Shown in pieces: positions 5,549 to 25,470 of a DNA stretch of 32,446 bases. The notes under the pieces were generated by a model. It worked only from the letters and a program-made list of their open reading frames with translations, ran no database searches and had not been told where the DNA came from. The stretch spans positions 1 through 32,446 of the forward strand of contig JAGLPW010000032.1 of NCBI GenBank assembly GCA_023137125.1, in the 5' to 3' direction. The position numbers were made by a program, and so were the translations under genes. This DNA is from Candidatus Cloacimonadota bacterium. Its GTDB lineage: Bacteria > Cloacimonadota > Cloacimonadia > Cloacimonadales > TCS61. Each line of letters begins with the position of its first letter. Within the stretch, counting starts at the first letter, position 1.

Positions 5549-7870
5549 TTATTTTCTCAGTAATTTTTCACACATCTCTACAACATTTATGGCATTCGGA
5601 CAATAGCCATTGCAGCCAAATTTCACTGCCAGGTTTTCATTCATGGAAGCACCACCTGCAACAAGGATGACCTTAATTCCTTCTTTTTTGATCAACCCTG
5701 CTATTTCTTCTATCCGGTCTATCGTAGTTGTCATCATTGCAGATAAACCTAAAATGTCAGCATTGTATTCTTTTACTGCTTCAATGATCTTTTTGGCAGA
5801 GATATCTGTTCCAATATCGATTACTTCAAATCCACCACTTTTTAGAACTGTTCCTACAATTTTTTTTCCAATATCATGAATATCACCTTCCACAGTTGCG
5901 ATCACTACTTTTGCCTTATATCTCTTCGATTCCGAAGTCAGAGAGTTCAAATAATCAAAAACCGGTTGAGTAGTATCATTTACCATAAGTAATTGTGGAA
6001 GATATATCTTTCCCTTTGCATAAAGGTTTCCTACTTTTTCCATTGCTTTACCCAGAATATTCTGACTGATCTCGATGGGAGTATGATCCGACAGCATTTT
6101 TTCGATTTCCTGTTTTAATATTTGCGTTTCACCTGTAAACATCAGCTTCAATATCGGGTCATCAATTTCTAATTTAGATGATGGACAGAGTTCCTGCCCC
6201 TTTAGTTTAAGAGAACCATGTAAATTATCCATAACAAAATTATCACCTGAATTCATTATCGCTGCATTCAGACCACTGTTCACACATTGAGCTATAAATG
6301 CACCGTTCAGGTAAGATCGATCCGGTAGGCCAAAACTGAGGTTGGAAAGACCGATTACTGTCTTAATACCAAGTTTGGAAAGTTGCCTGATAGTTCTGCG
6401 GGTAATCTCAGGATCATTATTAGCACCCAGGGAAAGTACCAGAGCATCGGCAAATACACGATCGCGGGATATTCCGTTTTCCTCGAGAACTTTTATTCCT
6501 TCCAATATCAGCTGAACACGCTCATCAACAGTTTCCGGAATCTGTTTGCCCATAGCCAACAAGATTAACATACCACCATACTTTTTCAGGAGTTTACTTT
6601 TCCTTTCCAGGCTTTTAGGTGTTATTCTGGCAGAATTGATAAGCGGACGACCGGGATATTCGCGTAAACACTGCTCAAGGTATTTGTTGGTTTGAATATC
6701 CATAGATAAGGGTAAGGAAGATTGTTTGTCTAATTTCCTGATAACATCCTGAAAGTGTGAGAAATCCAACATTTTTTCTATTCCGAGATTAATATCCAAA
6801 ACAGTTGCACCTTCATGTTTCTGCGCTTCTGCTTCCTGCAGGACAGTAGAAAAATCTCCATCAATGATCTGTTGCTGAAACTTTTTTCTCGAAGCCGGGT
6901 TAATCCGTTCCCCGATGATTGTGAATGGAGTTACATCCTTGATAATTGTTCGAGATGATAATGTTTGCTTCACCGTTTTATTTCTTGGTTTTGGTTTATA
7001 TTTTTTGGCAAAGCGATGAACTAGTTTAATATGATCCGGTCCTGTGCCGCAGCATCCTCCGATAATATTGGCACCCAGATTTATAAAATCTTCTACGTGG
7101 ATAGCAAACTCTTCCGGTGAAGTTTTATAGAATAGGCTATTGCCATCATAATACGGGTTGCCTGCATTTGGTTCCACAGAGAGGAATTTACTGGTGTTTT
7201 CTGCTACTTCCCGGAAGACATCCAGCATTTCTTCAGGTCCTGTGGAGCAGTTAATGCCAATCACATCTACGTCTAGGTCGTCAAACACAGTTGCAAAGAT
7301 TCGGGCAGAAGTTCCGGTTATAGTGCGCGCATTAGATTCAAAGGTCATTTGGACGATTAACGGCAATTCTTCCGTAACTTCACGAATACCCCAGACAACA
7401 GCTTTCAGTTCTTTGATATCGGAAAAGGTTTCTACAATGAAGCCGTCAACTCCGGCTTCCAATAAGATTTCAGCCTGTTTGCGAAAACTCTCTACAGCAT
7501 CTTCAAAATTCTGTGATCCCAATGGCTGTGGGAATTTACCTGTAGATGAAATATTCCCAAAAACAAGTACCTTGCCATTTGCTGCTCTCTTGCTGATCTT
7601 AACTGCTTCCAGATTGATTTTTTCAAAAAGATCTTTATAACCCAGTAATGCCAGTTTAGCAGGATTAGCATTAAAAGTATTTGTCAGTATTATATCGGCA
7701 CCACTTTTTACATAGTTTCTCTGCAAAGCTTCCACAACTTCCGGATGTTTGATGTTTAGGATTTCACCAGGAACATTTCCATAGCCCATTTTGAAGTATT
7801 CGGTTCCATATCCACCGTCCAGGATAAGAATTTCCTGCTCCAAACGTTGCTTAAATTTATCTCGATTCAT
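5549..7870 (-). CDS. metH: Cobalamin-dependent methionine synthase, short form without activation domain
   Basis: It transfers the methyl group of methyl-tetrahydrofolate to homocysteine through methylcobalamin. The 773 residues contain, in order: a homocysteine-binding barrel (about 1-290) with zinc ligands C208, C273 and C274 (INCSTGP and GGCCGTG); a pterin-binding barrel (about 312-555, GERINPASRKKF, NSGDNF); the B12 cap (about 560-640, YLPQLLMV); and the Rossmann B12 domain with GDIHDIG, whose H665 is the lower cobalt ligand. The protein stops after this domain and lacks the fourth (SAM-binding reactivation) domain of E. coli MetH. That domain is encoded separately just upstream, overlapping by 14 bases. 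The layout resembles Thermotoga maritima MetH. Confidence 0.95.
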   Translation of the reverse strand: MNRDKFKQRLEQEILILDGGYGTEYFKMGYGNVPGEILNIKHPEVVEALQRNYVKSGADIILTNTFNANPAKLALLGYKDLFEKINLEAVKISKRAANGKVLVFGNISSTGKFPQPLGSQNFEDAVESFRKQAEILLEAGVDGFIVETFSDIKELKAVVWGIREVTEELPLIVQMTFESNARTITGTSARIFATVFDDLDVDVIGINCSTGPEEMLDVFREVAENTSKFLSVEPNAGNPYYDGNSLFYKTSPEEFAIHVEDFINLGANIIGGCCGTGPDHIKLVHRFAKKYKPKPRNKTVKQTLSSRTIIKDVTPFTIIGERINPASRKKFQQQIIDGDFSTVLQEAEAQKHEGATVLDINLGIEKMLDFSHFQDVIRKLDKQSSLPLSMDIQTNKYLEQCLREYPGRPLINSARITPKSLERKSKLLKKYGGMLILLAMGKQIPETVDERVQLILEGIKVLEENGISRDRVFADALVLSLGANNDPEITRRTIRQLSKLGIKTVIGLSNLSFGLPDRSYLNGAFIAQCVNSGLNAAIMNSGDNFVMDNLHGSLKLKGQELCPSSKLEIDDPILKLMFTGETQILKQEIEKMLSDHTPIEISQNILGKAMEKVGNLYAKGKIYLPQLLMVNDTTQPVFDYLNSLTSESKRYKAKVVIATVEGDIHDIGKKIVGTVLKSGGFEVIDIGTDISAKKIIEAVKEYNADILGLSAMMTTTIDRIEEIAGLIKKEGIKVILVAGGASMNENLAVKFGCNGYCPNAINVVEMCEKLLRK

Positions 7871-8486
7871 TTATTTCACCTCTTTCATTTAACCAGCCGA
7901 TAAGGCAGATTGTGCTTTTTTTCGGAGTTAATATTCCCGTTTCTTTATCAGCAACTATTGCATTTATTTTTAGGAAGTCAGTCATCAATTCATTATTATA
8001 TGTAATTGGTAAATCATCATAACCGGGAGAGAATCTCATAGTTCCTTTTCCTGATCGGGCACGCAATTTGCCGTCAAACCATTTATTCAATGCTTCCACA
8101 GATTCCGATGCCCAGGCATCCAGCAAAGTGGCTTCTAAAATTTTTTCTTCACCAATAAATTGTTTTATTTGTTGATCAATTTTAGAACCAAGTGTAGAAG
8201 CAAAAAGTGTTATGCTGGAAGACCCTTCTAACCTGGAAGGGATCAAATATATTGGAAATGCACTGGTTTTTTTATCATTTCCCGGATTTTCAATTTCAAC
8301 AGGAAAATCCTGCCAGTAAATCACTGGCTCAGACAACTCCAATCCTTTTTTATATATTCTATTGATAACGCTGTTCAATGCTTTCGGGATAGCAGTAGAA
8401 TGCTTCATAGCTACTCTGAACAGATAGCGCTTTTTTGTAGGCATGATCACATTCTTATCTGGTATAAGTATGTTGGCTGTTTTCAT
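7857..8486 (-). CDS. Stand-alone MetH activation domain protein
   Basis: This is a 209-residue protein without strong overall similarity that I can name. It contains R-F-S-P-G-Y (151-156) followed by a helix and then a strand (TGILTPKKSTICLIGW). This matches the RxxxGY SAM-binding signature and the following region of the MetH reactivation domain. Its neighbour is a MetH without that domain, and the start of metH lies inside its last 14 bases. The inferred role is reductive reactivation of cob(II)alamin on MetH using SAM and a flavodoxin or ferredoxin electron donor. The ATG has AGAGGA upstream. The motif is seen; the function follows from the family and position. Confidence 0.82.
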   Translation of the reverse strand: MKTANILIPDKNVIMPTKKRYLFRVAMKHSTAIPKALNSVINRIYKKGLELSEPVIYWQDFPVEIENPGNDKKTSAFPIYLIPSRLEGSSSITLFASTLGSKIDQQIKQFIGEEKILEATLLDAWASESVEALNKWFDGKLRARSGKGTMRFSPGYDDLPITYNNELMTDFLKINAIVADKETGILTPKKSTICLIGWLNERGEINESR

Positions 8487-8503: not shown

Positions 8504-9466
8504 TCATTGCCGAAGAAATCCTTTGATGTTTTCCAACAGAGCTTTGGCCGATCTTCCTTTTCCCATAGTAAAAAGGTGAATAGCTGGAACACCATAATCT
8601 ATTAGCTTTTCCACCAGAGAAGTCATATAATGTGTTCCTGCCAGAAATTCTTCTTTTTCTGTACGTGCTTGCTCGAAGGCAGCAACAAGTTCCTGAGGAA
8701 TATCAATATAAAAATCTCGTGGAATCCTTTGAAGGGATTTTCTCCTGATCACGGGTTTTATTCCCGGAATAATTGGAATAGTAATGCCAATTTTCCTGGC
8801 TTTTTCCACAAACCTCCTGTAGTAATCAAAGTTAAAAAAAATCTGAGTGATAATATAGTCGGCACCTTGATCCACTTTGTACTTGAGAGATTGAAGATCT
8901 TTTTCCATATTCATCGCTTCGAAATGTTTTTCAGGATATCCTGCTACGCCTATACAAAAGTCGGAAGCATTAGCGGATTCGATGGGATAGGTGAAAATAC
9001 CTTTGTTCATGTCGGAGATTTGCTTTACGATTTCACTGGCATAAGAGAAGTTATCTTGTTCAGGATTGGACACATAATTATTAGGTACAGGATCTCCCCT
9101 GACGACAAAGAGATTCTGGAAATTAAGAAACTGAAAATCGATAAGCAAGTTTTCTAATTGAAAACGGTTACTACCGCTACAGATCAAATGAGGAACTGGT
9201 TCAATATTATACCGCTGTTTGATGGCACTTGCCAATCCTACAGTACCTGCATGTTTATTATGGGGAATTTTGTGAATTTCATTCCCAACCTCCTGAAAAG
9301 TGAATGATGTTTGATGATTAGTTACATTGATGAAAAGCGGATTGAAAGGCAGCAATTTTTCGATGGGAAGGAATATATTTTCTAATTTACTGCCTTTCCT
9401 GGGTGGAATAATCTCAATAGATAGAAAGGGCTTCTGTTTTAAATTCAGTGCTTCAGTTAATTTCAT
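8504..9466 (-). CDS. metF: Methylenetetrahydrofolate reductase
   Basis: MTHFR reduces 5,10-methylene-tetrahydrofolate to 5-methyl-tetrahydrofolate with FAD, making the methyl donor for MetH. The 320-residue protein is a single barrel. Visible signatures are SIEIIPPRKG with the catalytic glutamate near residue 18, the VRGDP segment with the aspartate that contacts folate, GVAGYPEKH, and the QIFFNFDYY strand. It overlaps the upstream UPF0280 gene by 14 bases and is 17 bases from the activation-domain gene, so it is central in the operon. No NADH-binding partner (MetV type) is adjacent. The electron donor cannot be read from the sequence. Confidence 0.95.
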   Translation of the reverse strand: MKLTEALNLKQKPFLSIEIIPPRKGSKLENIFLPIEKLLPFNPLFINVTNHQTSFTFQEVGNEIHKIPHNKHAGTVGLASAIKQRYNIEPVPHLICSGSNRFQLENLLIDFQFLNFQNLFVVRGDPVPNNYVSNPEQDNFSYASEIVKQISDMNKGIFTYPIESANASDFCIGVAGYPEKHFEAMNMEKDLQSLKYKVDQGADYIITQIFFNFDYYRRFVEKARKIGITIPIIPGIKPVIRRKSLQRIPRDFYIDIPQELVAAFEQARTEKEEFLAGTHYMTSLVEKLIDYGVPAIHLFTMGKGRSAKALLENIKGFLRQ

Positions 9467-10244
9467 TTATTCCCTCCAAAATCGGGCTGTTTTCTTTTGG
9501 TGAAAGAGCTTTTAATTCAAGCTTTCCCTGAACCCCCAACTTATTATTCTTTATAATAAGAACATTTAATATATCGTCAAATACTTTTGTTCTTAATAAA
9601 GTTTTGGAAATATCCTCTTCGGTTTGAACCTGGTTACAGAATGCCGTCGCGAAAACATCTGCCAAAGCTGTATTTTTACATGCCACCACTACAGCATCCG
9701 CTTTTCCTTTACTGAAAGAGTGACCAAAGGTTCCGGCTGATGTACATATACCCAAAGGTGAATATACAGGCAGTATGTTTAATCCAACCTTACCAGAAAG
9801 AAGAGATGATCCTGCATATACTGAAATTGTGATAGGCTTATCGATTTTTATGAAAAGATCACCCCCGTTTTCTATGATCAATTCTCTCGGATTGAATTTA
9901 TCAATAATAGCCTTTCCAACTTCCTGTGCGAATAATCCGGCTACTGCTGCCATGGGTCCGATATTAGCCTTTGATGCAGCTTTTGCCATTTTCTTAATGT
10001 TGTCCGATGCAGTTCGGGCAATTTCCAACGGAACCAGGCTTGTCCTGAATTCCGGGTTTTCAACGTTATATGTATCCAGTTCCCCTCGAAGGGTGATTAT
10101 TTTTCTTCGGACAAAAGTCGGAATTTCTTTGCGATATGAATCCGGATCGATCCCTATCCAGAGGTCGGATTCCTTCCATATCACACAGAAACTGACAAAC
10201 CGGTTTGTTCCCATTCCTTTACGGTAAAATCTTGGATGATACAT
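9453..10244 (-). CDS. UPF0280 (COG2122) ApbE-like protein
   Basis: This 263-residue protein belongs to UPF0280, a family related in fold to the ApbE flavin transferases. Signatures include GPMAAVAGLFAQEVG (about 97-111), IIENGGDLF, SVYAGSSLLSGKVGL and LGICTSAGTFGHSFSKGKAD. As I recall, COG2122 proteins have been linked to homocysteine formation from sulfide in methanogens, beside DUF39 and NIL-ferredoxin proteins, and exactly those genes precede it here. The biochemical role is not settled; flavin attachment or a redox step for the DUF39 enzyme is inferred. It starts 2 bases after the ferredoxin gene stop. Confidence 0.9.
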   Translation of the reverse strand: MYHPRFYRKGMGTNRFVSFCVIWKESDLWIGIDPDSYRKEIPTFVRRKIITLRGELDTYNVENPEFRTSLVPLEIARTASDNIKKMAKAASKANIGPMAAVAGLFAQEVGKAIIDKFNPRELIIENGGDLFIKIDKPITISVYAGSSLLSGKVGLNILPVYSPLGICTSAGTFGHSFSKGKADAVVVACKNTALADVFATAFCNQVQTEEDISKTLLRTKVFDDILNVLIIKNNKLGVQGKLELKALSPKENSPILEGINEIN

Positions 10245-10246
10245 TG

Positions 10247-10657
10247 TTACTCTTCAAACTGTAATTGGAATAGTTGCAAGGGGCATGCTTTCACACATAA
10301 ACCGCAAGCTACACATTTATCCGGAGTAAAGACAAGCTCACTTTTTTCATTAAGGATGCTCAGGGCACTGGTGCAACAAACAGCTGTACAGGCTCCGCAA
10401 TGCACGCATTTCTCAATTTCGAGATGGATCCGTTTCTCAAATGGGATCACTTCGATATCTTTGTGCTGCAAAAAGGAAATAGCTTGTTTCAATTTTATAC
10501 TATTGGCGTCTAATTCTACCAACATAATTCCACTTTTTCCGGGATATATCTCTGCTCTCAGGATATTCACTCGAATATCGTACTCCTTTATCAGACAGTA
10601 TGTAACTGGTTCTTCAACAGCACTGGGACGGAACTTTAATATATATTTTTTACTCAT
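10247..10657 (-). CDS. NIL domain, 2[4Fe-4S] ferredoxin protein for homocysteine synthesis
   Basis: The 136-residue protein has an N-terminal NIL domain (about 1-75, an ACT-like fold also found in methionine ABC transporters) and a C-terminal two-cluster ferredoxin. The cluster motifs are CVHCGACTAVC and CVACGLCVKACP. In the first motif the residue after the fourth Cys is Cys rather than the common Pro. Such NIL-ferredoxins accompany DUF39 proteins and supply electrons for sulfur insertion in homocysteine synthesis (established for methanogen homologues, inferred here). Its start lies 8 bases inside the end of the DUF39 gene, a sign of translational coupling and joint function. Confidence 0.93.
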   Translation of the reverse strand: MSKKYILKFRPSAVEEPVTYCLIKEYDIRVNILRAEIYPGKSGIMLVELDANSIKLKQAISFLQHKDIEVIPFEKRIHLEIEKCVHCGACTAVCCTSALSILNEKSELVFTPDKCVACGLCVKACPLQLFQLQFEE

Positions 10658-11813
10658 AGTCTTTACCTCTTATCTTTAATCCATTCAGAGATGTATTTTT
10701 AGGGAAGAGTTGCACCGGTTCAGTCAGGAAAAACTTCTTCCGTTGAATTCGGTTTTTCAAGTCTTCAGCAATTATTCGTGCTTTATACAGACTGGAGAGG
10801 GGTGCTGTTTGGATCCTTTCGCCACCCAATTCAATATAGCCGGATTGCAGCTGCTGATAATTGGTTTTCCCCAAAGCCGGATGTCCATTCCTTCCATAAT
10901 CACAGATCGTAGTTTCTATCTGTTCATTGCGAATGGAAACAGTCCGGACAATATCTTTATTCAGAAGCGGGATTGGAATACCAATACCGACAAAAATACT
11001 CACACCGTATTTTTCATAAACGGCAGGTCTAATGAATTCGGTGCTCATATCTTTCATATTTCCAATAACAGCCAGAGTAGCTGCATTAATGGTTGGAATA
11101 CCAAATTTATTTTTGGGACGTACAGTATTGAACTGGGTGCCGTTCCAGGCCACAAAGCCCTCTGCTCCTCCCAAAAGGATTTTTGTGCCGATCCCGATTG
11201 TTCTTAATTCAGGATCATTCAGTAACGGACTCAATTCACCGGATGTTGAATACGTTACATTTCCTAACCCCGGTAGCAGGATTCCCATATATGTGTATTT
11301 TGTTGAACTTGTTGTGTTAGTTGCTGCCGGATAATTCTGATACGCATTTCTCGGATTGAATAGAATCATTTCATTGATTTCCTTTTTGTTGATATATGTA
11401 TCAATCTCTTTCCTGGGATAACAGTCGGTTCCTTTAGCTCTTGCTTTAAGTAGCACATCTTTCCCGTCGATCAAATCATAAATGACATGTGCTCCACCGT
11501 AATAAGGGTCGTCTTTTGCTGTTTCCGTTGCTCCGATAAAGGTATCTACAGCTGCGAGTCCACCGGATGCAGGCACATTATTCAGCGAGATTTCTTCCAT
11601 ACGGATCGGGGGATCTGAATGGCCAAAGTTGAGGAAAGCTCCGGATGAGCACATTGGTCCAAAAGTAGCTGTAGTAACCACATCGACCTCATTAATAATC
11701 TCTTCAGGAGATAATGTCAGAGCCATTTTAGATACTTCCTCCGCTGTAATTACAACAGCGTCACCCTGCCTGATTTTCTTGTTAATTTCTTCAACTGTTT
11801 TGTTAGATTTCAT
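10650..11813 (-). CDS. DUF39 homocysteine biosynthesis protein
   Basis: DUF39 (COG1900) proteins make homocysteine from aspartate semialdehyde with sulfide-derived sulfur, bypassing homoserine activation and cystathionine. The 387-residue protein holds the two conserved cysteines of the family, C55 in TFGPMCSSGAF and C131 in KGTDCYPRK. It also has the conserved ASGGLAAVDTFIGAT and LLGGAEGFVAWNGTQF segments. No C-terminal CBS pair is present; the ferredoxin partner is a separate downstream gene. It overlaps the end of the aspartate kinase gene by 11 bases. Family assignment is firm; activity is inferred from characterised homologues and the operon. Confidence 0.93.
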   Translation of the reverse strand: MKSNKTVEEINKKIRQGDAVVITAEEVSKMALTLSPEEIINEVDVVTTATFGPMCSSGAFLNFGHSDPPIRMEEISLNNVPASGGLAAVDTFIGATETAKDDPYYGGAHVIYDLIDGKDVLLKARAKGTDCYPRKEIDTYINKKEINEMILFNPRNAYQNYPAATNTTSSTKYTYMGILLPGLGNVTYSTSGELSPLLNDPELRTIGIGTKILLGGAEGFVAWNGTQFNTVRPKNKFGIPTINAATLAVIGNMKDMSTEFIRPAVYEKYGVSIFVGIGIPIPLLNKDIVRTVSIRNEQIETTICDYGRNGHPALGKTNYQQLQSGYIELGGERIQTAPLSSLYKARIIAEDLKNRIQRKKFFLTEPVQLFPKNTSLNGLKIRGKDYE

Positions 11814-13215
11814 TGATTTCCTCCTTTATATTTAATTTTTCAATATTGCAAAAAAATTCTTCGTGAATGGCTTTAACAGCTTGTATTTTATCGTTTTTAG
11901 ATACTATAAAATAGATCGCCACATCAGACGCTCCGGCTGAGATCAACCGGACATTTATTCCCCGAGTAAATACAGCCTGAAATGTTCTGGCAGCGATTCC
12001 GGGTTGATTCAGAATTCCTTCTCCAACAACGGCTATCAGTGAGATATCGTCTTCGGTTTTAATCTCATCAAGTGTAATCAAATGAAGGCTCTTTGCCAAC
12101 TGATAACCTTTATCAATATCAGACTTGGAAAGAAGAAGTTTGATCTTTGTCTGTGTGGTTATAATTGATTTAATATTGATATCATATTCGTTCAGAATTG
12201 TGGTGACTTCAGCCATAATTCCTGGCTTAATACCAACACCCGGTCCATTGAGTTCCAGTATGGCAAAATCATCGCTGTATGTAACACTTTTGATAATGGA
12301 AGGCGTAATGACTTTTGTATCTGCAATATAAGTAACCGGTTGCAGTTCTCCGCTGAATGTGTTTATATTGAAGATACGCAACGGGATGGAGTGATGAAGT
12401 AAAGGTTCGACTGTTTGTGGATGAAGTATTTTTGCGCCAAAGTAGGAAAGCTCAGCAGCCTCGCTATAATTAAGTTTTTTTATAGGAATGGCATTATTTA
12501 GTATTTGTGGATCCACACTGGAAAAACCGGATACATCTTTCCATAAATCAAGCGATTCTGCTTGAACACATCTTGCTATCGCTGCTGCGGAATAGTCACT
12601 ACCACCTCTTCCCAGAAGTGTAACCTTACCCTCTTTGGAAACACCATAGAAACCAGGGATAATATAAGTTTTGTTTTCAGATAAAGTTTTTTGTACAGTA
12701 GGAATAGAAGCTTCGAAATCAATGCAAGCGTTGTTAAATATACCATCTGTGATTAATCCTATATCTTCCGGTAATGCTTCTGTAGCATCAATACCGAATA
12801 CGTTCAGTAGAGAGCAGAGTAACAAGGAAGAGAGTCTTTCCCCAAAGCTTAAGACCCAGTCATGGACAAAATCGGGAACTTCACCGAAATAATTGATACC
12901 TTTGAACTTTTTCTCTAGTTCCTCAATCCTGACTTCAATTCTTTTGCAGAGTTCTTTTTGTTTTTCGGATTCATCGATGTATTGTTTAATGATATTAAGA
13001 TGTGTATCTTTTAGAAATACAATGATCTCTTTTATTTCTTTCCGACTTTTTTGAATCCGTCTGAGAGCATCATTCAAACGATCCGTAATCCCATAGAGAG
13101 CTGAAACAACCACGATAACAGGTCTATCATAGCTTTTCAACACTTTGATGATCCTGAAAAGATCTTCTCTGGATTTCAGGTTTGAACCTCCGAATTTGAT
13201 CACAACATATTTCAT
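11803..13215 (-). CDS. lysC: Aspartate kinase
   Basis: It phosphorylates aspartate, opening the route to aspartate semialdehyde, lysine, threonine and methionine. The 470-residue protein has the amino-acid kinase fold with VIKFGGSN (5-12), VVVSALYGITDRLN, GFYGVSKEGKVTLLGRGGSD and the SVDPQ segment, followed by two ACT domains (about 315-460) with GVGIKPGIMAEV and GEGILNQPGIAART. The long helical insert around residues 75-115 resembles monofunctional or ThrA-type kinases. It is the first structural gene of the methionine operon and sits directly behind two Met-rich attenuators. This suggests the isozyme is dedicated to methionine supply. The ribosome binding site AAGGAG is 9 bases upstream. 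Confidence 0.95.
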   Translation of the reverse strand: MKYVVIKFGGSNLKSREDLFRIIKVLKSYDRPVIVVVSALYGITDRLNDALRRIQKSRKEIKEIIVFLKDTHLNIIKQYIDESEKQKELCKRIEVRIEELEKKFKGINYFGEVPDFVHDWVLSFGERLSSLLLCSLLNVFGIDATEALPEDIGLITDGIFNNACIDFEASIPTVQKTLSENKTYIIPGFYGVSKEGKVTLLGRGGSDYSAAAIARCVQAESLDLWKDVSGFSSVDPQILNNAIPIKKLNYSEAAELSYFGAKILHPQTVEPLLHHSIPLRIFNINTFSGELQPVTYIADTKVITPSIIKSVTYSDDFAILELNGPGVGIKPGIMAEVTTILNEYDINIKSIITTQTKIKLLLSKSDIDKGYQLAKSLHLITLDEIKTEDDISLIAVVGEGILNQPGIAARTFQAVFTRGINVRLISAGASDVAIYFIVSKNDKIQAVKAIHEEFFCNIEKLNIKEEINEI

Positions 13216-13232: not shown

Positions 13233-13272
13233 TATAAAAAAAACCGCTGGTTTAAAATAACCGGCGGTTTTT
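13233..13272 (-). terminator. Attenuator terminator T2 before aspartate kinase
   Basis: Read on the minus strand, AAAACCGCCGGTT and AACCAGCGGTTTT pair with one C/A mismatch around a six-base loop, followed by a run of T. It lies between the stop codon of leader peptide 2 and the aspartate kinase ribosome binding site. Any transcript that enters the operon must read through it. That is the position expected of an attenuator and not of an end-of-gene terminator. Confidence 0.85.
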
Positions 13273-13306
13273 GTCGTTTATATTTCTTTAAATGGTTATT
13301 CTAAAC
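13250..13306 (-). promoter_or_regulatory. Candidate antiterminator pairing for T2
   Basis: On the minus strand, GTTTAGAATAACC (13306-13294), which covers the last codons and stop of leader 2, is complementary to GGTTATTTTAAAC (13262-13250) over 13 positions with one G-U pair. The second segment is the top of terminator T2, so the two structures exclude each other. A ribosome at the leader stop would cover the first segment. A ribosome stalled at the Met cluster (13326-13343) would leave it free. Confidence 0.7.
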
Positions 13307-13418
13307 GTTCGTAAAATAAGTATAGCATGGCCATCATAGACATCCCGGAAAAAGATACGAAACCGTGTATAGTATTAGCATTTGATAGGTTGCGAAAAAC
13401 TGATTTATTCTTCTTCAT
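13296..13418 (-). CDS. Met-rich leader peptide 2 of the methionine operon
   Basis: A 40-codon ORF with an AGGAG ribosome binding site (13424-13428) six bases before ATG. Most of the peptide is unremarkable, but residues 26-31 read MSMMAM, four Met codons in six, located about 19 bases before the antiterminator segment. Terminator T2 follows the stop codon by 24 bases. I read it as a ribosome-sensing leader peptide for charged Met-tRNA. A small membrane-associated protein is an alternative, but the placement directly between two terminators argues for a regulatory ORF. Confidence 0.72.
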   Translation of the reverse strand: MKKNKSVFRNLSNANTIHGFVSFSGMSMMAMLYLFYERLE

Positions 13419-13451
13419 ATCTTCTCCTAAATATTTATAAAATTTTAAAGC

Positions 13452-13488
13452 AAAAAAAAACCGTCAACCCAGAAAAGATTGACGGTTT
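13452..13488 (-). terminator. Attenuator terminator T1
   Basis: On the minus strand, AAACCGTCAA and TTGACGGTTT form a perfect 10-bp stem with an 11-base loop, followed directly by at least six further T. It lies 15 bases after the stop codon of leader peptide 1 and 33 bases before the start of leader peptide 2. Its position inside the leader of the operon, with no finished gene before it, indicates attenuation. Confidence 0.88.
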
Positions 13489-13512
13489 ATTTATAAATTT
13501 ATCTTATTCTGA
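13469..13512 (-). promoter_or_regulatory. Candidate antiterminator pairing for T1
   Basis: On the minus strand TCAGAATAAGAT (13512-13501), spanning the end and stop codon of leader 1, can pair with ATCTTTTCTGG (13479-13469) using one bulged base and one G-U pair. The target is the loop and the top of the T1 stem. The pairing is weaker evidence than for T2, because it takes only one base of the stem. The lack of a linker between loop pairing and stem should still make the two structures incompatible. Confidence 0.45.
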
Positions 13513-13572
13513 ATATCGTTTTAGAAAGGGCATCATTATGCCGTGCATCATCTGCATTATCATATTTTGCAT
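13504..13572 (-). CDS. Met-rich leader peptide 1 of the methionine operon
   Basis: A 22-codon ORF with AGGAG (13579-13583) six bases before ATG. Seven of its 22 residues are Met, at positions 1, 4, 6, 8, 9, 13 and 14, the densest Met run in the window. A small hairpin GGCAT-AATG-ATGCC lies within the Met codons, and terminator T1 follows the stop. Composition, length, ribosome binding site and terminator fit a leader peptide that measures Met-tRNA supply for the methionine operon downstream. It is too short and polar to suggest another role. Confidence 0.82.
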   Translation of the reverse strand: MQNMIMQMMHGIMMPFLKRYSE

Positions 13573-13604
13573 AATTAACTCCTTCTTTTTTTTTAATTAG
13601 TTTT

Positions 13605-13633
13605 TAGAAATTTTTTCTGCTACTATTTGTCAA
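13605..13633 (-). promoter_or_regulatory. Possible promoter of the methionine operon
   Basis: A consensus TTGACA lies at 13633-13628 on the minus strand, 55 bases before leader peptide 1. The -10 hexamer at 17-base spacing (TTTCTA, 13610-13605) is poor, so only the -35 element is convincing. No S-box, cobalamin riboswitch or T-box signature was recognised between here and the aspartate kinase gene. Confidence 0.4.
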
Positions 13634-13717
13634 GTAAAGAATAAGAAGCCATTATAAACTACCACATAAAAGAATTAATTATTTGCATTTGAGAAGATCA
13701 AAGATTAAAACATTTCA

Positions 13718-13852: not shown

Positions 13853-15769
13853 TTATTTCTCATCTTTATAATTCCATCGCACGTTTATCTTTCGCTCAGG
13901 TTCTTTCTTTATCTGATTAAAAAATCCTGTATTCGTGCAATTTGTTTTGTGTATCGTAATTCCTTTTCCGCGAGTAATATAACCGATGATCTCATCACCC
14001 GGAACGGGATTACAACATTTGGCATAACGCAAAAGAATGTCCCGTATATCTTCAATAATAATCCCGTCAGTTTTTTTTCGCTTCAATTCTAATTCATCCT
14101 GAATAATTTTGGGTGCTTCGATGAATTCTTTTTCTTTCAGTACTTCTTTGATGTCATCGAAAGTGATCTCATTTTTTCCCAAAGCTGCAAAAAAAGAACG
14201 AACATCACTTATCTTGAAGTTACGTGCGATTTCCGCAATGTCTTCATCAGTTTTTGCTTTCAAATGTATTTTTCTGGCTCTTTTAAAGAACAGCTCTTTC
14301 CCTGTATCTATGAATTCCTGTAATTCCAATTTCTTGAAATACGAACGTATCTTCTGACGAGCTTTAGGCGAAGAGAGGAAATTCACCCAATCTTTACTCG
14401 GCTTTGCCTGCGGGGAAGTGAGTATTTGCACCACATCTCCAGAATATAAACGTGAGCGTAAAGGAACAAGTTTACCGTTCACGAAAGCACCCTTGCAATG
14501 AAATCCCACATCAGTATGGACTTTGAAAGCATAATCTATCGGTGATGAATGTTTCCGTAATTTTATATAATCGTTTTGAGGAGAAAGCACGACTATGATA
14601 TCAGGATGCAGATTCATTTTCAGCGAATCGATAAAAGTTTCCGAGTCTTTTTGGTCATTCAGGAAATTACGAATTCTAAACAGTTGCTTTTCAAATTCTT
14701 CATGAATTTGAGCTTTTGTTTCCTGCCCTTTGTATCGCCAATGTGCAGCAATTCCTTCTTCTGCGATAAGGTGCATTTCTTTTGTCCTTATTTGAAATTC
14801 GAACCTTTGACCTTCAGCATTTTCGGCTACGAGATGTAGTGAGCGGTAATTATTCGGTTTGGGACGCGTGATATAATCTTTCCTGCTTTTTTCCAGTGGA
14901 ATAAATTCTGTCTGTATAACGCCCAAAACTTTATAGCAGTCACTCACTGAATCCACAATAATGCGGACAGCAGCAAGATCCAGAATATCTTCATAAGAAA
15001 TGTTTTTGCGTTTGTTCTTATGAAAAATGCTGTAAAAATGTTTGCTTCGTCCGGTCACAGTTCCGGAAATATCGTTGTTTTTCAATATCAACTTAATCTG
15101 TGAAACAGCATTTTGTATCATCAGATCTCGTTCATCTTTTTTTATCGAAACTTGTTTTACCAGTTTTTTATATTCATCGGGAAAAAGATATTTGAAACTC
15201 AGATCTTCCAGTTCCCATTTGATTTTTGCAATTCCGAATCGATTTGCCAAAGGTGCATAAATATCTATTGTCTCTCGGGCAATTCGCTGTTTTTGTTTGT
15301 CCGTCATATATTCCAGAGTTCGCATATTATGAAGTCTATCGGCAAGCTTAATCAGAATTACGCGGATGTCTTTGGTAATTGATATTAACAGCTTTCGGAA
15401 GTTTTCTGCCTGTTTATCGGTTTCCTTTGCTCTGTATCGAAACGATTCTATCTTAGTTACACCATTTACAAGCTCAGTTATCTCTGCTCCGAATTTGTTT
15501 TTCAGATCTTGTGATGTGATGTTCGTATCTTCCAAGACATCGTGTAAAAGAGCTGAAGCAATTGTTATTGAGTCCAATTTCATCTCTGCCAAGATGTATG
15601 CTACGTTCACGGGATGAATTATATAGGCTTCTCCCGATTTGCGTTTTTGCGTTTCGTGAGCAGAAGATGCAAAATGCAAAGCCTCCTGCAGAAGCTCATT
15701 GTTCGCATAGATCTTAAGTTTCCCGATCTCATCAAGAAAATTATCTTTTCCGATATTTTTGTATTTCAT
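13853..15769 (-). CDS. rel: Bifunctional (p)ppGpp synthetase/hydrolase, no ACT domain
   Basis: A long RelA/SpoT homologue that makes and degrades the stringent alarmone. The hydrolase HD domain is intact (H52 in IIHPVNVAYIL, HDVLEDT at 76-82, LIKLADRLHNMRTL). The synthetase domain has GRSKHFYSIFHKNKR, YRSLH and AEEGIAAHWRYK. TGS (about 395-455), helical and zinc-finger-like (YAKCCNPVPGDEIIGY, GKGITIH) domains follow. It ends after RKINVRWNYKDEK at 638 residues, where typical Rel proteins continue with an ACT/RRM domain of about 80 residues. No ACT-like coding was seen downstream. Both enzyme activities are expected; amino-acid and ribosome sensing may differ. Confidence 0.93.
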   Translation of the reverse strand: MKYKNIGKDNFLDEIGKLKIYANNELLQEALHFASSAHETQKRKSGEAYIIHPVNVAYILAEMKLDSITIASALLHDVLEDTNITSQDLKNKFGAEITELVNGVTKIESFRYRAKETDKQAENFRKLLISITKDIRVILIKLADRLHNMRTLEYMTDKQKQRIARETIDIYAPLANRFGIAKIKWELEDLSFKYLFPDEYKKLVKQVSIKKDERDLMIQNAVSQIKLILKNNDISGTVTGRSKHFYSIFHKNKRKNISYEDILDLAAVRIIVDSVSDCYKVLGVIQTEFIPLEKSRKDYITRPKPNNYRSLHLVAENAEGQRFEFQIRTKEMHLIAEEGIAAHWRYKGQETKAQIHEEFEKQLFRIRNFLNDQKDSETFIDSLKMNLHPDIIVVLSPQNDYIKLRKHSSPIDYAFKVHTDVGFHCKGAFVNGKLVPLRSRLYSGDVVQILTSPQAKPSKDWVNFLSSPKARQKIRSYFKKLELQEFIDTGKELFFKRARKIHLKAKTDEDIAEIARNFKISDVRSFFAALGKNEITFDDIKEVLKEKEFIEAPKIIQDELELKRKKTDGIIIEDIRDILLRYAKCCNPVPGDEIIGYITRGKGITIHKTNCTNTGFFNQIKKEPERKINVRWNYKDEK

Positions 15770-16073: not shown

Positions 16074-16904
16074 ATGAATGGAGATAGTAAATTTCTAAAT
16101 AGCCTGAAAAATTTAGGCTTTAGTGAGCGACAGGCTAAGGTTTATGCAGCGTTATTAGAAAAAAGGGATGCATCTCTTACTGATCTGCAAAAGATCTCGG
16201 GAGTTCCGCACAGCAAAGTAAGCGAGGTAGTTAATTACCTGCTGCGCGAAGGATATTGCAGTGCAAAAAAAATCGGCAACAGAAGATATTTTAATGTTGT
16301 CAGCCCAAAATCTTCATTTAGCAGCTCTTTGAAAAACATGGAAGATAATTTGAATGAAAGTTATAAACTAACCAATGAAATGGAAGAAATGTATAATAAT
16401 TCCGATAAAATTAAAGAACCTTTTGAATACATAGAAGTTTTTCATGGAAATAATAATATTCATCAAAAATTCTGCTCGTTATTGAAAAATGCTAAAAATG
16501 AGGTATTATCTTTTACTAAACCACCATGGGCAGATGTTACACCTGAAGAAATAAAGGAGCAGGCAGATTTGCAAAAAACTTACCTTGAAAATGGTGGTAT
16601 TAGTAAAACTATTTACGAGATATCAAGTAAGGATGATAATTGTATAATTGGTATCATGGAAAGAGATCTTAAAATTGGTGAACAATCTAAGATCTCACAG
16701 GTTCTTCCGCTCAAAATGTTCATTTTTGATCGGAAAGAATTACTAATTGCTGATTCATCATCTTTAGCTCCTACAAATGAACTCCGAATGGCACTCATCA
16801 AACAGCAGACTATTGTAAATGCATTTATTGCTTTATTTGATTTTTTCTGGCAGCAATCTATGGATAGTAAATCATGGAAAGCGCAGCAAAATAAAGAAAA
16901 ATAA
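16074..16904 (+). CDS. TrmB-family transcriptional regulator
   Basis: A 276-residue protein with an N-terminal winged helix (about 8-75: LGFSERQAKVYAALLEKRDA, KISGVPHSKVSEVVNYLLREGYC). A short coiled segment and a C-terminal alpha/beta domain (about 115-265) of the PLD-like TrmB type follow. TrmB proteins bind palindromic operators and usually sense sugars or other small ligands; the ligand here is unknown. The ribosome binding site is GGAGG. The stop is 10 bases before the start of the candidate selenoprotein gene, so the two form an operon, and the regulator probably controls itself and that gene. A paralogue starts another secreted-protein module at 19405. Confidence 0.85.
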   Translation: MNGDSKFLNSLKNLGFSERQAKVYAALLEKRDASLTDLQKISGVPHSKVSEVVNYLLREGYCSAKKIGNRRYFNVVSPKSSFSSSLKNMEDNLNESYKLTNEMEEMYNNSDKIKEPFEYIEVFHGNNNIHQKFCSLLKNAKNEVLSFTKPPWADVTPEEIKEQADLQKTYLENGGISKTIYEISSKDDNCIIGIMERDLKIGEQSKISQVLPLKMFIFDRKELLIADSSSLAPTNELRMALIKQQTIVNAFIALFDFFWQQSMDSKSWKAQQNKEK

Positions 16905-16914
16905 AGGAGGAAGT

Positions 16915-19119
16915 ATGAAAAAACAATTGTTAGTTTTCGTTCTATTATTGCTTACAATGTCATTGTTTGCAGCTCCCAGACAATATGTTTTGTTTGAAGT
17001 TGTAACTGGAACCTGGTGAGGTGCTTGCCCTGCGACTGCGGTGCTGGTCGATCAAATGTTTGATGAAGGATATCCCATTGCTGTAGCATGTCATCACAAT
17101 ATGGACGAATTTGAATGTGATGATTCCATTGCAAGGATTGGTGAAATGGGGATCAATCTTTATCCCACCCTGATCCCGGATGGCGGACCCGAACCTACAT
17201 ATCCGTACACTCATCAAATCCTGGAAAATAAGATCAATGAACGAATGGCCATACCTTCTCCTTGTACTATAGCAATATCCGGGCAGTTGATAGATAATGA
17301 ACTGACCGTTAATGTTTCCGTCGTTAAAGATGCAGGTGCAGAAATGCCCAATGCCAGGGTTCAGGTTGTAATTACTGAAATTGATATTCCTTATAATGAT
17401 CCTAATTACAATTACGAAATGAATTTCGTAAATCGAGATATGATTCTTGACCATAATGGTACTGTTCTTACTTTTAATGGAAATTTAGCAGAAGTTTCAG
17501 TTACAGGAGTACTCGATCCTTCCTGGAACCAAGGCAATATTATTGTTGTTGCTTTCGTAGAAAACGGGGCAACTCTTGAAGTATTCCAGGCATCCAGAGA
17601 AGATATTGAGATGTTCCTGGCAGATCCAAATGCTCCTGCAATTCCCACCGATTTTGTTACAACTCCCGATCCAACAGGTACGTTATCCTGCGACCTGAGC
17701 TGGACGAATCCTTCTCTTGATTTCTCTGGGAATCCTCTTACTGAATTATTGGAAATGAGATTGTATCGTGATGGTGATCTGATCTATACCGATTCAAATC
17801 CGACTATTGGTGGAGCAGGCAGTTATACTGATGTTCCTTCTGATCCAGGGTTGTACAATTATATGATTTTGGGGTATAATTCCTTTGGAGAAGGACCAGG
17901 TGCAGTTGCAACTACATGGATTGGAGAAGATGTTCCCAATGTTGTTGAAGATCTTGAATTGGAAAATGTAGGTAACCAGGCCTATGTTTCCTGGACAAAT
18001 CCAACAACAGGATTTCATGGTGGAGTTTTTAATAATCCCATTCTCGGCTATACTATCGAGAGAAATGATGGAACTGTAGTTGATCTTCAGGGCATTGCAA
18101 CAGATTTTACAGATACAGTACCTACTGCTGGATATTATCAATATACGATTACACCTTATAACGTGATTGGAGATGGTGGAACTGCAACAACAAATCTTGT
18201 CTGGATTGGTGATGGTTTTAGTGGTATCGTAATTTGTGATCTTGATCCAACTCCTACAGGTGATGTGCTGCAAAGTGCGTTCCAGAACTATTATACGGGT
18301 TCCGTCGTTGTTACAAACGATATAAATGGATACCCACTGACGACCGACGTGGATGCAGTATTTGTTCTTCTGGGAATTTACTCAAATAACTTTGTTCTTA
18401 CAGAAACAGAAGCCACACTTCTGGCAGCATATCTGGAAAATGGTGGGAATTTGTATATGGAAGGTGGTGATACCTGGTGTTATGATACTCAAACATCAGT
18501 TCATCCATATTTCAACATCGATCCCTTATCGGATGGTTCTTCCGATCTATCGAATGTTGATGGACACGACTTCTTAGATGGATTGAGTTGGACCTATACA
18601 GGAGAAAATAACTACATCGATCAGCTTGCACCGATAGAACCTGCCGTTACTATCTTCTCAAATCCAACAATTGGTTACGATTGTGGTATTGCCTACGATT
18701 CCGGAACCTACAAAACAGTAGGAACATCTTTCGAGATAACTGGTCTTGGTGGGACAAACAGCCTAGATGACGCTATAGAAGGAATAATTAATTTCTTTGG
18801 AATTGGAGGAGTAGATGCAGATGATGAGATAGTTCCTGTAACAAGCACATCTTTAAACCAGAATTATCCAAATCCATTTAATCCCACAACTACGATAAGT
18901 TTTTCACTTAAAGAAGCAGGTCATGTTTCAATTAAGATTTACAATATGAGAGGTCAGCTTGTTAAGACCCTTGTAAATGCAGAACTTGAAAATGATTATC
19001 ATGAGATCGTGTGGAATGGTAAAGATAACAGTGGTAAGAATACAGCTAGTGGTGTTTACTTCTACAAAATGAAAGCTGGCAAGTTCGTTACAACCAAGAA
19101 GATGATTCTGATGAAATAA
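16915..19119 (+). CDS. Exported Omp28/thioredoxin-like protein with probable selenocysteine and sorting domain
   Basis: One reading frame of 735 codons with an AGGAGG ribosome binding site, interrupted only by TGA at 17017-17019 (codon 35). Domains: signal peptide (about 1-19), thioredoxin-like domain (about 22-95), Omp28-like beta domain (to about 235), two fibronectin-III-like repeats (about 240-440), an amidotransferase-like fold (about 445-640) and the sorting tail (NQNYPNPFNPTTTISFS to KKMILMK). The TGA falls in TGTW-U-GACP, where family members have TGTWCGxCP, so it replaces the first Cys of CxxC; the second is C38. NLYPTLIPDG is the cis-Pro loop. Recoding to Sec is inferred. Alternatives are a nonsense mutation, or separate expression of a short secreted peptide. 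Confidence 0.82.
17020..17047 (+). promoter_or_regulatory. bSECIS-like hairpin after the in-frame TGA
   Basis: Directly downstream of the TGA, bases 17024-17047 can form a hairpin with inner stem CTGC/GCGG (17030-17033 with 17038-17041). It continues past single mismatches through 17028-17043, 17027-17044, 17025-17046 and 17024-17047. The apical loop is GACT (17034-17037), with G first. The loop begins 15 bases after the TGA, near the short end of the spacing known for bacterial SECIS elements, and a G at the start of the loop is their main sequence requirement. Confidence 0.55.
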
Positions 19120-19141
19120 TAGCTTGTAAGCTATATAATAG

Positions 19142-19170
19142 AATGCCCTGGTTTCGATCAGGGCATTTTT
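19142..19170 (+). terminator. Intrinsic terminator of the selenoprotein gene
   Basis: AATGCCCTG and CAGGGCATT pair perfectly around an eight-base loop and run into TTTTT. It follows the stop codon by 22 bases and ends the first regulator/secreted-protein operon. Confidence 0.9.
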
Positions 19171-19182
19171 GATTTCATTACT

Positions 19183-19206
19183 TCTGACCACTCACGAGTG
19201 GTCAGA
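19183..19206. repeat. 24-base near-perfect palindrome
   Basis: TCTGACCACTC and GAGTGGTCAGA are perfect 11-base inverted arms separated by AC. There is no T-run, so it is not a terminator. It lies between the terminator of the selenoprotein gene and a sorting-tail remnant, and is followed at 19208-19229 by a second hairpin (AACTTGTC/GGCAAGTT). It could be a repeat marking a deletion junction, or an operator. Confidence 0.6.
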
Positions 19207-19218
19207 GAACTTGTCTTC

Positions 19219-19263
19219 GCAGGCAAGTTTGTTTCAACCAAGAAGATGATTCTTATGAAATAG
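19219..19263 (+). pseudogene. Second orphan sorting-tail remnant
   Basis: The frame ending at TAG 19261-19263 reads AGKFVSTKKMILMK. It nearly duplicates the end of the preceding gene (AGKFVTTKKMILMK, 19075-19119). The similarity continues past the stop (GCTGTAAGTTA here against GCTTGTAAGCTA there), and both tails are followed by a terminator. There is no start or upstream coding. It is the 3' end of a lost paralogue, either by tandem duplication followed by deletion or by recombination between tails. Confidence 0.75.
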
Positions 19264-19282
19264 GCTGTAAGTTACTACTTTT

Positions 19283-19319
19283 AAAGCCCCATCCGGCAAT
19301 TGCTAGATGGGGCTTTTTA
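19283..19319 (+). terminator. Intrinsic terminator after the tail remnant
   Basis: AAAGCCCCATC and GATGGGGCTTT form a perfect 11-bp stem with a 12-base loop, followed by TT and more T-rich sequence. It originally ended the lost paralogue whose tail lies at 19219-19263 and now separates the two TrmB modules. Confidence 0.9.
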
Positions 19320-19330
19320 TCCATACGATA

Positions 19331-19355
19331 ATTTTGCACCTATGAGGTGCAAAAT
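19331..19355. promoter_or_regulatory. Perfect inverted repeat, candidate TrmB operator
   Basis: ATTTTGCACCT and AGGTGCAAAAT are perfect 11-base inverted arms around ATG, 50 bases upstream of the second TrmB-like gene. TTGCAC within the left arm and TATTAT (19355-19360) at the right edge could serve as a poorly spaced -35/-10 pair, so a bound dimer would cover the promoter. A terminator lies just upstream, and the hairpin has no adjoining clean T-run, so an operator is the better reading. Confidence 0.6.
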
Positions 19356-19404
19356 ATTATTTTTTAGGAATGAAAGTTGCATTATAAAAAATCAGGAGGT
19401 GTTA

Positions 19405-20220
19405 ATGGAAGATATGATCAGTGAATTATTGGAAATCGGATTAACCGAATATGAAGCAAAAGCATATTTAGTATTATTGAAACAGAATGTTGTCACTGCT
19501 ACAGAAATAACTAAGATCAGTAATATTACGCGCGGAAGAATATATGATATTTTAAATCTTCTCATTGAAAAAGGATTTTGTATCACCATTCCCGGAACTA
19601 TCAAAAAATTCCAAGCTGTAGATCCTGAAGTTGCAATTAATAACCTGCTAGAATTGCATAAAAAAAAAGAACAAAGAATGAAAGAAACTGCCGTAAAATT
19701 ACATGAACTGTATGATAACCAGGAAGACACATCTTCTCCTTTAGATTATATTCATATTCTAACATCCAAACCCAGTATGATCAAAAAGCATCATGAACTG
19801 GATAATATTTCTAAAGAAATAGTAAGAACATTCAATAAAGGACCTTATGTTGAAGTTCTGGATCCTGCATCAGTAATGGATCGTAGTGCATTTCTTGAAG
19901 AAAGTTTAAAGAAAGGTAAAATTGAAAAATCATTATATGAAATAGATAAATACAATACTGATGATTTTATTAAAGAATTACAATTTTTCATCGATCCCCG
20001 TGAAGAGATCAGATTATGTGATCATCTTCCCATGAAAATGATCATTTCTGATAATAATGCTGTTATGATCTCTTTACGCAACAATGGGAATCCAAAGCTC
20101 AAACTAACAGCGATGATCGTTGAGCACTCCGATCTTACCGATGCTCTCATTGAATTATTTGATATTTATTGGGAAAAAGCCATCCCATTGGATGAGTATA
20201 TAAAAAATCAAAATCAATAA
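19405..20220 (+). CDS. TrmB-family transcriptional regulator, second copy
   Basis: A 271-residue paralogue of the regulator at 16074, with a winged helix at the N-terminus (about 5-75: IGLTEYEAKAYLVLLKQNVV, ISNITRGRIYDILNLLIEKGF). A linker and a C-terminal alpha/beta domain (about 110-260, DYIHILTSKPSMIKKHHELD, LPMKMIISDNNAVMISL) follow. The frame is open further upstream, but the start at 19405 has AGGAGG at ideal spacing and matches the paralogue's N-terminus. It is followed after 39 bases by a secreted beta-helix gene and then a C25 protease gene, with no terminator between them. It probably regulates this operon; the ligand is unknown. Confidence 0.86.
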   Translation: MEDMISELLEIGLTEYEAKAYLVLLKQNVVTATEITKISNITRGRIYDILNLLIEKGFCITIPGTIKKFQAVDPEVAINNLLELHKKKEQRMKETAVKLHELYDNQEDTSSPLDYIHILTSKPSMIKKHHELDNISKEIVRTFNKGPYVEVLDPASVMDRSAFLEESLKKGKIEKSLYEIDKYNTDDFIKELQFFIDPREEIRLCDHLPMKMIISDNNAVMISLRNNGNPKLKLTAMIVEHSDLTDALIELFDIYWEKAIPLDEYIKNQNQ

Positions 20221-20259
20221 TTAAAATCAGAATTCAGTTATTAAAAAGGAGAATAAAAA

Positions 20260-21654: not shown

Positions 21655-21701
21655 AAATATAATTGTGAAAAAACATTAAAAAGTATTATAAAGGAGATTG
21701 T

Positions 21702-25358: not shown

Positions 25359-25400
25359 CCGAACATCTATTGTTCTAATTGACATTAACTGAAATATATA

Positions 25401-25436
25401 AAAAATAACACAGATTTTAATCTGTGTTATTTTTTG
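25401..25436 (+). terminator. Intrinsic terminator of the second secreted-protein operon
   Basis: A 16-bp perfect stem, AAAAATAACACAGATT with AATCTGTGTTATTTTT, a two-base apex (effective loop about four to six bases) and a T-tract. It lies 42 bases after the C25 gene and closes the module that began with the second TrmB-like gene. Confidence 0.92.
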
Positions 25437-25470
25437 TTTTGGATATATTCGTTATTACCAAGGAGAAAAA

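Follow-up and report, generated by a model that had tools for sequence, protein, structure and literature searches.

A probable methionine leader-peptide attenuator with two candidate gates upstream of an apparently homoserine-independent methionine operon in Candidatus Cloacimonadota

The closest described counterpart of the leader reported here is metL of Campylobacter jejuni, a predicted Met leader located before metBA (PMC3847290), the start codon of which has been seen by Ribo-seq/TIS profiling (PMC11955535). It is a short ORF of 20 codons, three of them Met, that leads a methionine biosynthesis operon; its RNA ends shortly after the stop codon, and ribosome-mediated attenuation has been proposed (PMC3847290). 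A Met-containing leader ORF, also named metL, has likewise been proposed to attenuate the methionine gene cluster metNIQ of Streptomyces lividans, but the case is weak, with a leaderless transcript, 3 Met in 29 codons and no typical terminator (PMC8079986). Leader peptides outside Proteobacteria and Actinobacteria were noted as new by Naville and Gautheret in 2010 (PMC2965389). In Salmonella, the mgtCBR leader RNA carries two short ORFs that each control transcription, as tandem attenuators for two different signals, ATP and proline (PMC3641672). SAM riboswitches (S-box and others) and Met T-boxes also control methionine genes by a choice between terminator and antiterminator. The his, trp, leu and thr leaders of Proteobacteria combine operon-cognate codons, a stop codon near the terminator and an exclusive antiterminator that is freed by the stalled ribosome. 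The textbook attenuator of E. coli has, in addition, a protective hairpin. Since Met leaders have been reported for C. jejuni and S. lividans, the Met-leader principle is not new. The initial annotation of the present locus had stated that no well-described Met leader of its tandem type was known, and this holds for the doubled form: no report of paired attenuators arranged serially for a single amino acid, or of leader attenuation in Cloacimonadota, was found in the open-licence literature, where absence is weak evidence.

The locus lies on the minus strand of a 32,446-nucleotide stretch of DNA from an uncultured Candidatus Cloacimonadota, analysed as a whole and referred to as the window. 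From 5' to 3', the leader is arranged as a TTGACA block, a first leader ORF (L1) with its terminator (T1), a second leader ORF (L2) with its terminator (T2), and aspartate kinase. Its features, including the strands of two candidate antiterminators (AT1 and AT2) and the conservation in G039, the one genome with a homologous leader, are as follows.

13606..13639, minus strand: TTGACA block, putative promoter -35 region; 91% identity to G039, against 57% immediately upstream of it
13579..13584, minus strand: Shine-Dalgarno sequence of L1, AAGGAG, 6 nt before the ATG; from sequence
13504..13572, minus strand: leader peptide ORF L1, MQNMIMQMMHGIMMPFLKRYSE then stop, 22 codons with 7 Met; open and indel-free in G039
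13501..13512, minus strand: 5' strand of candidate antiterminator AT1, UCAGAAUAAGAU, with the L1 stop codon inside and one bulged U
13458..13488, minus strand: intrinsic terminator T1 plus U9, a perfect stem; absent from G039
13469..13479, minus strand: 3' strand of AT1, AUCUUUUCUGG, the end of the T1 5' arm plus the loop
13424..13428, minus strand: Shine-Dalgarno sequence of L2, AGGAG, 5 nt before the ATG; from sequence
13296..13418, minus strand: leader peptide ORF L2, MKKNKSVFRNLSNANTIHGFVSFSGMSMMAMLYLFYERLE then stop, 40 codons; 60% amino acid identity to G039
13326..13343, minus strand: Met cluster of L2, codons 26-31, MSMMAM; 4/4 Met conserved in G039
13294..13306, minus strand: 5' strand of candidate antiterminator AT2, GUUUAGAAUAACC, with the L2 stop codon inside
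13275..13280, minus strand: possible competitor segment UAAACG, pairing with 13307-13302 in an RNAfold hairpin; putative role
13239..13272, minus strand: intrinsic terminator T2 plus U8; 83% conserved in G039
13250..13262, minus strand: 3' strand of AT2, GGUUAUUUUAAAC, the T2 5' arm and loop
13225..13230, minus strand: Shine-Dalgarno sequence of aspartate kinase, AAGGAG; from sequence, with the aspartate kinase ATG at 13215

Both Met-rich leaders that had been noted, each with a ribosome binding site and a terminator, are therefore present as described. No clear TATAAT-type -10 consensus was found downstream of the conserved TTGACA block. Frame 0 of L2 is the only frame open in both the window and G039. 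On the minus strand T2 contains one C.A mismatch, for which reason a simple terminator scan reported T2 on the plus strand alone; a C-G pair occupies the same place in G039.

Compared with C. jejuni metL, which is a single leader of metBA in another phylum, the locus has 7 Met in L1, a six-codon Met cluster in L2, a serial arrangement of two leaders with two terminators, and identifiable antiterminators. The two are presumably related by function only, as their downstream genes differ (metBA versus the DUF39 pathway). Unlike the proteobacterial leaders, the cognate codon here is Met, no clear protective 1:2 hairpin is seen, and the antiterminator uses the terminator 5' arm plus loop; unlike the mgtCBR leader, with its different signals and non-biosynthetic operon, both leaders contain the same regulatory codon. 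SAM riboswitches and Met T-boxes differ in that no aptamer or T-box was found here, and the sensor would be a translated ORF. We consider it likely that the leader is a ribosome-mediated transcription attenuator sensing charged elongator tRNA-Met through two gates in series. Judged from the sequence, attenuation would be a firm reading of L2 and T2 and a probable one of L1 and T1, which would work in the same way.

The genes downstream of T2 are listed with their family matches.

11803..13215, minus strand: aspartate kinase (AK), TIGR00657 above cut-off
10650..11813, minus strand: HcyBio (DUF39) homocysteine biosynthesis protein, PF01837, 477 bits
10247..10657, minus strand: NIL/ferredoxin protein, PF09383 plus Fer4
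9453..10244, minus strand: PRK04334-type protein, NF003323 at 1.6e-70, below its cut-off
8504..9466, minus strand: methylenetetrahydrofolate reductase (MTHFR), PF02219
7857..8486, minus strand: operon protein with no Pfam or NCBIfam match
5549..7870, minus strand: B12-dependent homocysteine methyltransferase, MetH-like, PF02574, PF00809, PF02607 and PF02310

These families agree with the earlier statement that both leaders precede aspartate kinase and homocysteine/methionine genes. The intergenic gaps range from -14 to +17 nt, and aspartate-semialdehyde dehydrogenase is encoded outside the operon, elsewhere in the genome (contig C21). The PRK04334-type protein presumably corresponds to the COG2122 group. 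The DUF39/NIL/COG2122 route leads to homocysteine without homoserine (PMC5764234), and the operon appears, from its gene content, to be a dedicated homoserine-independent methionine route serving methionine only. The metH model is matched only in part by the MetH-like protein, in which a family search returned no match to the C-terminal activation domain; for this reason, one might guess that the product of 7857-8486 is its reactivation partner.

To place the leader against chance, 1.18 Mb of the same genome (~40% of it), containing 895 gene upstream regions, was scanned for short ORFs that are preceded by a Shine-Dalgarno sequence and end just before a terminator that itself precedes a gene. 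About six separate places fit this pattern, L1 and L2 being two among them. No amino acid is more strongly enriched at any of these places than Met in L1 (p = 5.5e-6), and L2 is enriched in Met with p = 0.012. The ORFs and terminators at this locus are more than chance.

In each leader, the segment around the stop codon can base-pair with the 5' arm and loop of the terminator that follows it; counted from the first base of the last Met codon, the 5' strands of AT1 and AT2 start 21-22 nt downstream. AT2 pairs 13306-13294 with 13262-13250 (13 bp, duplex -14.2 kcal/mol), and AT1 pairs 13512-13501 with 13479-13469 (11 bp and one bulge). When the RNA is cut before the terminator 3' arm, the antiterminators are the minimum-energy structure on folding, in the window as well as in G039. 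None of 2,000 dinucleotide shuffles gave a pairing as strong as AT2, while AT1 reached p = 0.09 against dinucleotide and 0.016 against mononucleotide shuffles, and AT2 of G039 p = 0.05. With the stop codon held fixed, the values are 0/5,000 for AT2, 0.008 for AT1 and 0.056 for AT2 of G039. The AT1 pairing is suggestive and statistically marginal.

The effect of ribosome position was modelled by leaving out the RNA up to ~15 nt past the P-site codon. In this model, ribosome positions up to about codon 34 of L2 all permit AT2, which is lost by codon 37; AT1 no longer forms once the ribosome reaches codon 18 of L1, and AT2 of G039 is most favoured by a ribosome positioned at codons 31-34, where the Met cluster ends. 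The calculations accordingly describe an antiterminator that would exclude the terminator, be hidden while a ribosome sits on the stop codon and be exposed when the ribosome stalls at Met codons, a case that is strong for L2 and has marginal statistics for L1. Once the complete terminator is included, it is always the equilibrium structure in the model, so that the switch would have to be kinetic. The window antiterminators also form in the model without any ribosome. No clear protective hairpin was seen in the window leader, with the exception of a possible weak pairing between 13307-13302 and 13280-13275, and a ribosome-free leader is consequently predicted to read through.

In the mechanism that we propose, ample methionine would let the ribosome on L1, and then on L2, pass the Met codons and reach the stop codon, where it would cover the stop-codon segment; the downstream terminator hairpin could then fold and transcription would end. 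When methionine is short, the ribosome would stall in the Met cluster and leave the stop-codon segment free to pair with the terminator 5' arm and loop before the 3' arm is transcribed, and the polymerase would read on. Only a transcript that had escaped T1 and, after it, T2 would extend into aspartate kinase and the genes for homocysteine and methionine. More speculatively, two Met-sensing gates on one transcript might multiply their termination probabilities and give a steeper response over a wider range; in the absence of a protective hairpin, readthrough might also follow when a shortage of fMet blocks initiation, so that lack of methionine would be sensed at both initiation and elongation. 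We regard this extension as tentative, and rather doubtful.

Homologues were sought with AK, HcyBio, an L2 profile and the leader DNA in up to 125 genomes of the phylum and in two scans of GTDB contigs. Throughout this set the leader was present only in G039 (RS_12_26; another genus of the same family; contig JAGLWO010000365.1); weak matches to the L2 profile (E 0.006 upward per genome) were set aside as chance-level over 125 genomes. BLASTN aligns G039 with window positions 13644-11831, which run from the promoter block through to the end of AK; the neighbouring genes differ, and in G039 asd follows AK in place of HcyBio. L1 of G039 reads MQYMIMQIKNNIMMLFLKRCLE then stop, and its L2 MKNYKWVYNKFSNTNTIPSFVSLFMMSMMSMPYLFYEHLE then stop. 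Both ORFs are open and without indels at a dS of ~0.5, whereas the intervals between them do have indels, and the ORFs, the TTGACA block and T2 are better conserved than the sequence between. The probability that both ORFs would survive random substitution is ~0.03, which by itself is modest evidence for ORF conservation. L2 and AK have diverged equally at synonymous sites (dS 0.51 versus 0.50), and dN/dS is 0.41 for L2, 0.74 for L1 and 0.10 for AK. The L2 cluster reads MMSMMSM in G039, so that 4/4 Met are retained and a fifth is gained; the difference in conservation between Met and non-Met residues is, with two sequences compared, not significant by itself. In the AT2 core, 10/10 pairs are kept and the outer pairs fray. 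The sole changes in this core, A13302G with U13254C, are compensatory (A-U to G-C), via a synonymous Leu codon. In the alignment, base 13280, which is able to pair with 13302, has also changed from U to C, matching A13302G.

The comparison of related genomes suggested in the initial annotation thus has a mixed outcome in the one homologous leader: both ORFs, T2 and the L2 Met cluster are kept while other codons diverge, but L1 has lost 2/6 internal Met codons in G039, and T1 is missing from the G039 leader (lost or never present). A design with two candidate gates in series is seen in the window genome alone, with two complete ORF-terminator units against one in G039; because G039 has no T1 and its L1 is short of two Met, the two-gate form rests on one genome. 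The most serious competitor to our reading follows from this, namely that only L2 and T2 regulate, and that L1 and T1 are a redundant or decaying duplicate acting as a basal brake instead of a second Met-sensing gate. It would account for the missing T1, the less Met-rich L1 and its dN/dS in G039, and for the marginal AT1 pairing. It is harder to reconcile with the Met enrichment of L1, the strongest found, with its good ribosome binding site and the perfect T1 stem, and with a spacing of Met codon, stop codon and antiterminator that is the same in L1 and L2. We consider such a one-gate arrangement possible but less likely than two gates.

It is quite unlikely, in our view, that the terminators answer some other signal, such as an undescribed riboswitch, an RNA-binding protein or the general translation rate, with the Met codons incidental. 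The antiterminators can indeed form ribosome-free, and a leader translated slowly for any cause would read through too. Met, however, is enriched in both leaders and retained while other codons diverge, and the operon serves, as far as its genes indicate, Met only. The leader matched no Rfam family at the gathering threshold, and covariance models of SAM riboswitches and T-boxes matched only far below their gathering thresholds, for which reason a riboswitch or T-box identity was rejected. The earlier proposal of ribosome-mediated attenuation tuned to Met is supported by this result, by the conserved Met cluster, by the one compensatory change and by the antiterminator pairing, which it had not included.

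The 40 residues of L2 include a hydrophobic stretch, and its dN/dS is below 1, as might be expected of a functional small membrane-type protein with terminators that merely tune basal expression. We think this improbable: at equal synonymous divergence the amino acid identity of L2 is 60% versus 89% for AK, nothing clearly similar occurs elsewhere in the 125 genomes of the phylum, and the last L2 codons double as an antiterminator strand. Least probable of all is that T1 (with L1) is the ordinary terminator at the 3' end of the relA-like gene, which lies on the same strand (15769-13853) and ends ~365 nt upstream of T1, since L1 sits between the conserved TTGACA block and T1, and the G039 block (promoter block, L1, L2, T2 and AK) stands beside unrelated genes with no relA upstream.

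As to the origin of the locus, the fusA and murA genes in the window share 85-92% identity with those of same-genus genomes, so that the contig is native to its bin and bin contamination was rejected. A stretch of ~21 kb with the Met operon (window ~5391-26516) is absent at the same site in the same-genus genome G007, where murA is directly followed by sequence matching the window from 26516 onward. Between the window genome (G000) and G039, AK is 89% and fusA 77% identical, and a close AK occurs in no further genome of the 125. This distribution fits a transfer of the AK-plus-leader unit between lineages; differential loss may also account for it. The ~21 kb stretch (5391-26516) also holds the relA-like gene, TrmB-like regulators and secreted proteins. 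At E <= 1e-100 the relA/spoT-like gene (13853-15769) is unmatched in G001, G006, G007 and G039, and hence it may belong to one acquired block with the operon.

Several repeats were seen in these genomes. TrmB-like regulators and large secreted proteins, both named by eye, are paired repeatedly in the window (16074-26448) and in G007:C4 (L209), and in both places the secreted proteins end in a sorting-type tail, NPFNPTTTISFS...KKMILLK. Several copies of a dispersed repeat, ATGATGATAATTAATGGCGTCATAACTCC...GTTATGACGCC..., which includes an inverted repeat, occur in the window's genome; copies lie at G000:C3:9911-9989, C10:59598-59675 and C50:5339-5418, and at G005:C278:3077-3155. A repeated intergenic element contains a short Met-rich ORF (MNSTVMMMVMAMMRGSSPTG then stop, MNFTVMMMAMMRGSPPTG then stop, and similar), at these places.

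G007:C4 (L209), ~4330-4235, 9225-9125 and 14800-14693, minus strand: Met-rich repeat element
G031:C13 (L210), ~6070-6200: Met-rich repeat element
G109:C90 (L211), ~13380-13270, minus strand: Met-rich repeat element

Its stop region, GGGATAAC, and the loop of the terminator, GTTATCCC, are complementary, an overlapping frame (YDAWFTTNGITVF then stop) is equally conserved, and immediately upstream of a PanB-like paralogue there is one copy in G031 and one in G007. The element may be either a second Met-leader family or a mobile terminator repeat. The apparent Met-rich leader of the PanB-like gene was kept apart from the present finding because it recurs as a repeat, with most copies just after secreted-protein genes, and because the overlapping frame seems as conserved.

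If our reading is correct, leader-peptide attenuation for methionine occurs in Cloacimonadota, where it governs a methionine route independent of homoserine, and a single leader can hold two gates that answer to one amino acid. With two gates in one and one in the other, the window genome and G039 would form a natural pair for what the second gate adds. Leaders of this kind would escape Rfam, since their signal lies in the peptide rather than in the RNA; they could be found by the complementarity between the stop-codon region of a leader and its terminator.
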